Source: Actinomycetales bacterium (GTDB lineage Bacteria; Actinomycetota; Actinomycetes; Actinomycetales; Dermatophilaceae). From it: 38,813 nt of DNA. Within the stretch, counting starts at the first letter, position 1; each line of letters opens with the position of its first letter. Below the pieces are notes generated by a model. That model was not told the DNA's origin, ran no database searches, and saw only the letters and a list, made by a program, of their open reading frames with translations. Both the position numbers and the translations under genes were made by a program. The DNA lies in NCBI GenBank assembly GCA_012729695.1, contig JAAYCP010000045.1, positions 1 to 38,813 of the forward strand, read 5' to 3'. Shown piece by piece: positions 37,652-38,813 of this stretch.

Positions 37652-37689
37652 GTGTGCCGTTCGCGGCGCATGTCCCGCGCACGGCACAC
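37652..37689. repeat. Long hairpin upstream of the second TetR gene
   Basis: GTGTGCCGT/ACGGCACAC plus CGCGG/CCGCG, separated by one T-C mismatch: 14 pairs with an 8-nt loop. Right-arm sequence recurs at 37734-37749. It could be a terminator for the tRNA or a regulator site. Confidence 0.7.
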
Positions 37690-37749
37690 CCAGCAACGTC
37701 GGCGCCCGAACATCGTGCAACCCGCGTGCAATATCCCGCGCACGGCACA
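37673..37749. repeat. 16-bp direct repeat before the TetR start
   Basis: TCCCGCGCACGGCACA occurs at 37673-37688 and 37734-37749. The second copy lies 38 bp upstream of the assigned TetR start, a position suited to autoregulation. Confidence 0.75.
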
Positions 37750-37787: not shown

Positions 37788-38462
37788 GTGGGGCATGATG
37801 GAGATGTGGCCCAATCCCCCGTCGAGACCAAGGCAGCCGTCGCCCGCGCGCGCATGACCGGCAAGCAGCGGCGCGAGCAGCTGGTCGACGTCGGCCGCAA
37901 GCTCTTCGCCGCGAAGGGCTTCGAGGGGACCTCGGTCGAGGAGATCGCAGCGGCCGCTGGGGTCTCCAAGCCGGTGATCTACGAGCACTTCGGCGGCAAG
38001 GAGGGGCTGTATGCGGTGGTCGTCGACCGCGAGATCGACGCCCTCCTCTCGGCCATCACCGCGACGCTGACGTCGAACGGAACGTCCCGCCAGATCATCG
38101 AGCGCGCGGCGCTTGCACTTCTCGACTACATCGAGGGATCGACCGACGGCTTCCGGATCCTCGTGCGCGACTCGCCGCCCGGGCAGTCGACGGGGACCTT
38201 CGCCTCACTGATGTCGGATGTGGCCAGCCAGGTCGAGTACATCCTCGTCGCGGCGTTCAAGCGCCACCGCCTCGACCCCAAGGCCGCGCCGATGTACGCC
38301 CAGATGCTCGTCGGCATGATCGCCATGACGGGTCAGTGGTGGCTCGACTCGCGCAAGTTCAAGAAGCACGAGGTCGCCGCCCACGTCGTCAACCTGGCCT
38401 GGAACGGACTCACGGAGCTGGAGCGTCGCCCTACCCTCGAGCTCGACGACCCGGCGCACTGA
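37788..38462 (+). CDS. TetR/AcrR-family transcriptional regulator
   Basis: 224 aa from GTG 37788; GTG 37806 and ATG 37854 are in frame and none has a clear ribosome site. The DNA-binding domain begins at MTGKQRREQLVDVGRKLFAAKGFEGTS-type sequence; its helix-turn-helix is EEIAAAAGVSKPVIYEHFGGKEGLY. The C-terminal domain contains a Trp pair (GQWWLDSRK) that may line a hydrophobic ligand pocket. Mycobacteria carry a TetR gene (Rv1019) next to glmU, but here glmU is 8 kb away, so orthology is unproven. Hairpin and direct repeats in the 226 bp upstream are candidate operators. It converges with the partial methyltransferase gene. Confidence 0.88.
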   Translation: MGHDGDVAQSPVETKAAVARARMTGKQRREQLVDVGRKLFAAKGFEGTSVEEIAAAAGVSKPVIYEHFGGKEGLYAVVVDREIDALLSAITATLTSNGTSRQIIERAALALLDYIEGSTDGFRILVRDSPPGQSTGTFASLMSDVASQVEYILVAAFKRHRLDPKAAPMYAQMLVGMIAMTGQWWLDSRKFKKHEVAAHVVNLAWNGLTELERRPTLELDDPAH

Positions 38463-38516
38463 GCCCGCGCGGACGCGCCGGGCGCGCCCACCGCATACGC
38501 GAAGCCGCCGCGGGGC

Positions 38517-38638
38517 GTACCAGAACCTTCCTATTGTCACGTTCTGGTACGGCGGAGGGTGTACCAGAACGTTCCTATTGTCACGTTCTGGTACGGCGGA
38601 GGGTGTACCAGAACGTTCCTATTGTCACGTTCTGGTAC
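38517..38638. repeat. Three tandem 44-bp units, each a perfect hairpin
   Basis: GTACCAGAAC and its complement GTTCTGGTAC bracket a 14-nt spacer at 38517-38550, 38561-38594 and 38605-38638. The spacer reads (C/G)TTCCTATTGTCAC. In copies 2 and 3 the stem extends to 12 bp with loop TCCTATTGTC. The 10-bp linker GGCGGAGGGT is identical between copies. The period of 44 is not a multiple of three, so the array is not coding. It sits between two converging genes. Confidence 0.95.
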
Positions 38639-38698
38639 GGCGGCGGGCGGGAGCGGGGCGGAGTTCCGAGCGCGATGCTCTAACAAACAGGTCGCGGC

Positions 38699-38813
38699 TC
38701 AGCGCTTTCGCGCGACCGCAAAGGTCCGCCGGAACGGCAGCACCACCCCGGCAGACCCTCGTGGGTACGCCTCATGGAGCAATGCCCGGTAGGGCGTCAG
38801 GAACTCCTCCAGC
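38699..38813 (-). CDS. SAM-dependent methyltransferase, C-terminal end only (trans-aconitate methyltransferase-like)
   Basis: On the minus strand a frame enters from the window edge (first full codon at 38812) and ends with TGA at 38699-38701, giving 37 residues. The sequence LEEFLTPYRALLHEAYP, followed by a Gly and VVLPFRRTFAVARKR, closely resembles the C-terminus of trans-aconitate 2-methyltransferases, which end in a Tyr-Arg-x-x-L-x-x-AYP helix and a final beta strand. The catalytic part lies outside the window, so the call rests on this tail alone. Confidence 0.65.
   Translation of the reverse strand, partial: LEEFLTPYRALLHEAYPRGSAGVVLPFRRTFAVARKR

Follow-up and report, generated by a model that had tools for sequence, protein, structure and literature searches.

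A dispersed, genus-limited palindromic repeat, probably of REP/RPE type, forms a three-unit array between converging genes in a Dermatophilaceae genome

The window, by which we mean the whole 38,813-nucleotide stretch of DNA analysed here, contains an array of three palindromic units at 38517-38638. To the left of the array lies a plus-strand gene for a TetR-family regulator (37788-38462; Pfam PF00440) that is functionally unconnected to it, and to the right lies the 3' end of a minus-strand gene (38699-38813), which runs off the window and whose C-terminus matches the methyltransferase-fold protein of congeners. Because the TetR gene ends at 38462 and the opposing gene has its stop codon at 38699-38701, the initial annotation was right to place three units with a period of 44 between converging genes. 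Judged by the TetR protein, the closest named relatives are Dermatophilaceae, including an activated-sludge bin at 82% identity. TetR orthologues are present in all three congeners examined (G001, G002 and G003; 89-92% identity), and none of the three has the palindromic unit beside it. Downstream of the TetR gene, G001 and G003 have a glyoxalase-like gene and, beyond it, the methyltransferase gene; the window lacks the glyoxalase-like gene, and the array occupies its place between the TetR and methyltransferase genes (38463-38698). Different genes lie downstream of the TetR orthologue in G002.

Tandem Repeats Finder ranked the array as the top array of the window by a wide margin (period 44, 3.1 copies, 96% match, score 249). 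Units 2 (38561-38594) and 3 (38605-38638), both on the plus strand, share the sequence GTACCAGAACGT-TCCTATTGTC-ACGTTCTGGTAC, which is also the genome-wide majority sequence; its 34 nucleotides form a 12-bp perfect stem with a 10-nucleotide asymmetric loop. Unit 1 (38517-38550, plus strand) has C instead of G at base 11 (38527), breaking one arm pair, so that the complementary arms and loop first described for every unit hold throughout with this one arm change. The substitution itself had been listed as a peculiarity of the first copy; it is present there but is not private, being a family-wide variant that 7 copies in the genome carry. The two 10-nucleotide spacers (38551-38560 and 38595-38604) have the same sequence, GGCGGAGGGT, which points to tandem duplication of unit plus spacer, and the array is best read as one insertion followed by tandem duplications. 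Folded as RNA, a single unit is predicted to reach -27 kcal/mol (z = -8.9), and the hairpin is strong on either strand (-27 and -29 kcal/mol).

A search of the whole genome for further copies, as had been suggested, showed that the array is far from confined to one place. With exact arms, the pattern had 36 matches in the own genome and none in 57 relatives. Allowing up to 3 mismatches gave 93 matches in the 3.04 Mb of the own genome, compared to 0 for a reversed control pattern, and the occurrence of the palindrome is therefore beyond chance. A covariance model found about 99 strong-scoring sites (a manual count of strong-scoring rows) in this draft genome. The sites form about 54 clusters as fetched, or roughly 50 once overlapping contig ends are joined (C52 with C182, C226 with C61); with many of them located at the contig ends of a fragmented draft, the actual total is probably larger. 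Across 97 copies, there is almost no variation in the loop core AACGTTCCTATTG or in much of the 3' arm, the variable arm positions are bases 5-7 and 28-30, and a weak GGC...GCC extension of the flanks gives a 40-bp unit, so that the shared unit measures about 36-40 bp (weakly GGC, the 34 nucleotides, then GCC). Thirty copies are exactly identical. In all-against-all blastn, the loci had nothing in common beyond the unit, the arrays it forms and genes that are paralogous; with no longer shared segment around the unit, a longer insertion sequence or MITE enclosing it was rejected. The palindromic unit had no match above gathering score in Rfam, where only a tRNA reached threshold.

We then compared the unit between species. 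The exact core was found in no other species in a collection of about 85,000, a scan that may omit the own genome, nor in viral contigs, and plasmid and phage records gave no match. With the covariance model, related families appeared in two of the three congeners, GTCCAGCAACCTTCCTATTGTCAGGTTGCTGGAC in G001 (about 9 sites) and GTGCCACAACCTGGCAATTGCCAGGTTGTGGCAC in G002 (about 34 sites), and G003 had no units; matches in other genera were weak and look like chance palindromes. The related families differ in their arms and share the same architecture, and G001 and the own genome have the loop in common with different arms. When 26 units drawn from the three species were aligned, 94.1% of cells paired and seven pairs had changed on both sides. 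The covariation score was 0.349; shuffles gave 0.119 and slid structures no more than 0.073, the latter a control that favours the chosen structure because that structure was derived from the same aligned sequences. Despite this bias, the covariation is strong, with 43 double-changed cells where shuffles average 13. Thus the arms co-vary across species, and the palindrome is kept while its sequence drifts.

Units also lie in frame within seven genes of the own genome and G002. In the own genome these are an RNase H/histidine-phosphatase fusion with a unit in its linker, a type III polyketide synthase, SelO with two copies, and an SGL-family (gluconolactonase-like) gene with two units near a start codon that is itself uncertain; in G002 they are siroheme synthase, a toroid-like enzyme with no Pfam match, and the RNase H fusion, again in the linker. 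The fusion linkers of the two species (L016, L110) hold separate, species-specific units at differing positions. Alignments showed that the unit is absent from the compared congener orthologues of the unit-bearing genes; for the polyketide synthase, the search of the congeners turned up no close orthologue. The units in siroheme synthase and in the toroid-like enzyme take the place of part of an ancestral segment, with a net gain of +2 to +8 codons, which implies either that they did not arrive by a simple clean insertion or that the sites have been trimmed since. Orthologues of siroheme synthase, the toroid-like protein and SelO define no clean empty-site boundary or target-site duplication.

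We consider it likely, with a probability of roughly three in four, that the array in the window belongs, as one cluster of copies, to a genus-limited family of dispersed, non-autonomous palindromic repeats of the REP/RPE type. Two results weigh against this reading: the search for Y1 transposases gave no mobilising enzyme in the genus, and the orthologue alignments gave neither a clean empty site nor a clean target-site duplication. A genome-wide site for a nucleoid-associated or global regulatory protein is the strongest competitor, though an improbable one: a dimer would read the arms and the asymmetric core, selection would maintain the copies, and the species-specific arms would follow the protein as it evolves. 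Within the species, the asymmetric loop is almost perfectly conserved, which a bound protein could also explain, and the near-invariant core and 3' arm beside variable bases 5-7 and 28-30, together with a core common to the own genome and a congener, are what such a site might show. In co-directional gaps, the units have the same orientation as the flanking gene in 7 cases and the opposite in 10, and mixed orientation is expected of a DNA site. Against this, some copies sit in the linkers of coding sequences, near-identical units follow one another up to 9 times and G003 has none, all of which would be odd for a needed site, and the 30 exactly identical copies fit recent amplification better.

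The placement of the copies bears on a second alternative, in which the hairpin acts behind genes as a bidirectional transcription terminator or a stabiliser of mRNA 3' ends. By a simple in-house ORF rule used in place of a gene caller, 3 of 54 clusters fall inside genes, compared to a coding fraction of 74-82% (p < 1e-24). In 13 of 18 co-directional gaps, the units are nearer to the upstream 3' end than to the downstream start (p = 0.015), and 9 clusters lie in convergent gaps versus 5 in divergent ones, as might be expected of an element with a strong hairpin on both strands that serves 3' ends. However, the gene ends facing units (46 three-prime versus 34 five-prime) do not differ significantly, some units lie within genes or in divergent gaps, and termination needs no conserved asymmetric loop. 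The units lack a following U-tract, and a search for terminator-like sites gave none, which tells against the multiple terminator first suggested and leaves a terminator or stabiliser role quite unlikely. Of the many copies at 3' ends proposed as a mark of a REP-like family, the high number of copies is borne out; the preference for 3' ends is weak. Thirty flanking proteins were ordinary metabolic, repair and transport proteins, and there was no transposase among them.

Many copies are single and others stand head-to-tail in arrays, about 26 in number and 2 to 9 units long, with one exception (C269). Spacers within arrays are frequently repeated, so that the arrays look like tandem duplications. 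The longest array has 9 units with a 64-65 bp period and repeated spacers (L055, L057), and the contig ends L055 and L057 probably belong to one array. Many copies lie at contig ends, some of which overlap, as an assembly artefact would predict; but long contigs also contain copies whose flanking sequence is distinct and unique, and related families occur in two separately assembled congeners, so that an artefact is very improbable, and the assembly may misstate how many units each array has. An operator for the adjacent TetR regulator, the option suggested by palindromes adjoining its gene, can be dismissed almost entirely: about 99 sites lie beside unrelated genes across the genome, the unit is missing beside the orthologue in each of the three congeners, and the array is downstream of tetR rather than at a promoter.

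To relate the family to known systems, we used the published definitions of REPs (GTAG and CGTC superfamilies) and BIMEs (Di Nocera 2013, PMC3733652). Like REPs, the unit is a 20-40 bp palindrome present in high copy, mainly extragenic with some copies in genes, and belongs to species-specific families. Unlike REPs, it carries no unpaired tag, GTAG or CGTC, on either side of its consensus over 97 copies, where GGC/GCC is followed by GTAC, mirrored at the opposite end; it also has a conserved 10-nucleotide loop, and its hosts are Actinobacteria, which are missing from the phyla listed for REPs (PMC3733652). REP units mostly lie in opposite orientation, with negligible HT dimers for CGTC (PMC3733652), whereas neighbouring units here are almost only head-to-tail, unlike BIME-type REPs. 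The transposase search of the genomes was for Y1 (PF01797) alone and found no Y1/RAYT transposase in the four genus genomes, unlike what is seen for GTAG REPs; PF01797 occurs in 3 of 99 family genomes. As far as the Y1 search reaches, the Dermatophilaceae palindrome thus resembles CGTC REPs, which have no dedicated transposase (PMC3733652). Because the GTAG/CGTC tag, opposite-orientation pairs and the GTAG-type RAYT are all missing, we do not file the palindrome as a REP member. Of the three options first offered, the REP/BIME-like one nevertheless came closest: it agrees in copy number, palindromicity and intergenic placement and fails on REP tags and RAYT.

Rickettsia palindromic elements (RPE) are REP-like and lie in frame within ORFs (PMC3733652). 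Our unit is likewise palindromic, dispersed and in frame within genes for real proteins, and neither has a known transposase; compared by published description, it differs in its actinobacterial host, the lack of a CGTC tag, its 34-40 bp and its head-to-tail arrays. MITEs, at 70-300 bp (PMC3733652), share with it a non-autonomous, dispersed, gene-adjacent nature and inverted repeats, but at 34-40 bp the unit is too short, the orthologue alignments define no clean target duplication, and the Y1 search gave no parent insertion sequence. Several arrays have a period near 65 and spacers of about 31 nucleotides, as CRISPR arrays do; spacers are often duplicated, the unit is fully palindromic, and the roughly 50 loci are scattered, many of them with single copies, so that a CRISPR array was rejected, as had been judged from the window. 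By its architecture, the family is best read as a REP/RPE-like palindromic repeat without a RAYT, and in the literature we found no such element described for the Dermatophilaceae.

Under this REP/RPE-type reading, a DNA-processing or transposition enzyme encoded by the cell would recognise the folded hairpin by its loop and foot and copy it elsewhere. Units would survive where they do least harm, in intergenic space, protein linkers and in-frame positions, and tandem duplication of unit plus spacer would give rise to local arrays, including that of the window. Any effect on neighbouring mRNAs, such as the stabilisation of 3' ends by a strong hairpin, would be a by-product. More tentatively, these may be RAYT-less, self-dispersing palindromes whose hypothetical hairpin-recognising enzyme co-evolves with the arms, so that each species would have its own spelling, and tolerated in-frame insertion would add new peptide segments to proteins, for example VPERDNRNVLV; we regard this extension as possible but doubtful.

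The spread of REP-like palindromes that lack a RAYT is an open question, noted for CGTC REPs (PMC3733652), on which the family bears. The system is small, seems to be recent and is limited to one genus, in which three species have versions of their own and one congener has none. Since there are carrier and non-carrier congeners, and orthologues with and without an in-frame copy, a presence/absence hunt for the enzyme and tests of the consequences for proteins are both possible.

Two further repeats were observed. The heptamer GTATGCG occurred 240 times compared to 22 expected under an order-2 Markov model, about 11-fold, in a 327-kb sample of the own genome, and the octamer GTATGCGG 117 times compared to about 7-8. 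Both strands carry the heptamer, which occurs within genes as well as between them, and a looser consensus continues downstream of it (G at +9, C at +12); one example in the window lies at 38492-38498 (CGCATAC on the plus strand). All four genomes of the genus are enriched in it, even G003, which has no palindromic units, but loci of other Dermatophilaceae or Streptomyces showed no enrichment. By analogy, the heptamer resembles a DNA-uptake-sequence or HIP1-type motif. A second small repeat, CCCGCGCACGGCACA, occurs twice with 61-bp spacing behind tRNA-Gln in the window (37670-37749), forms part of imperfect palindromes, and is found again at 7914-7989 of L047 in the same genome.
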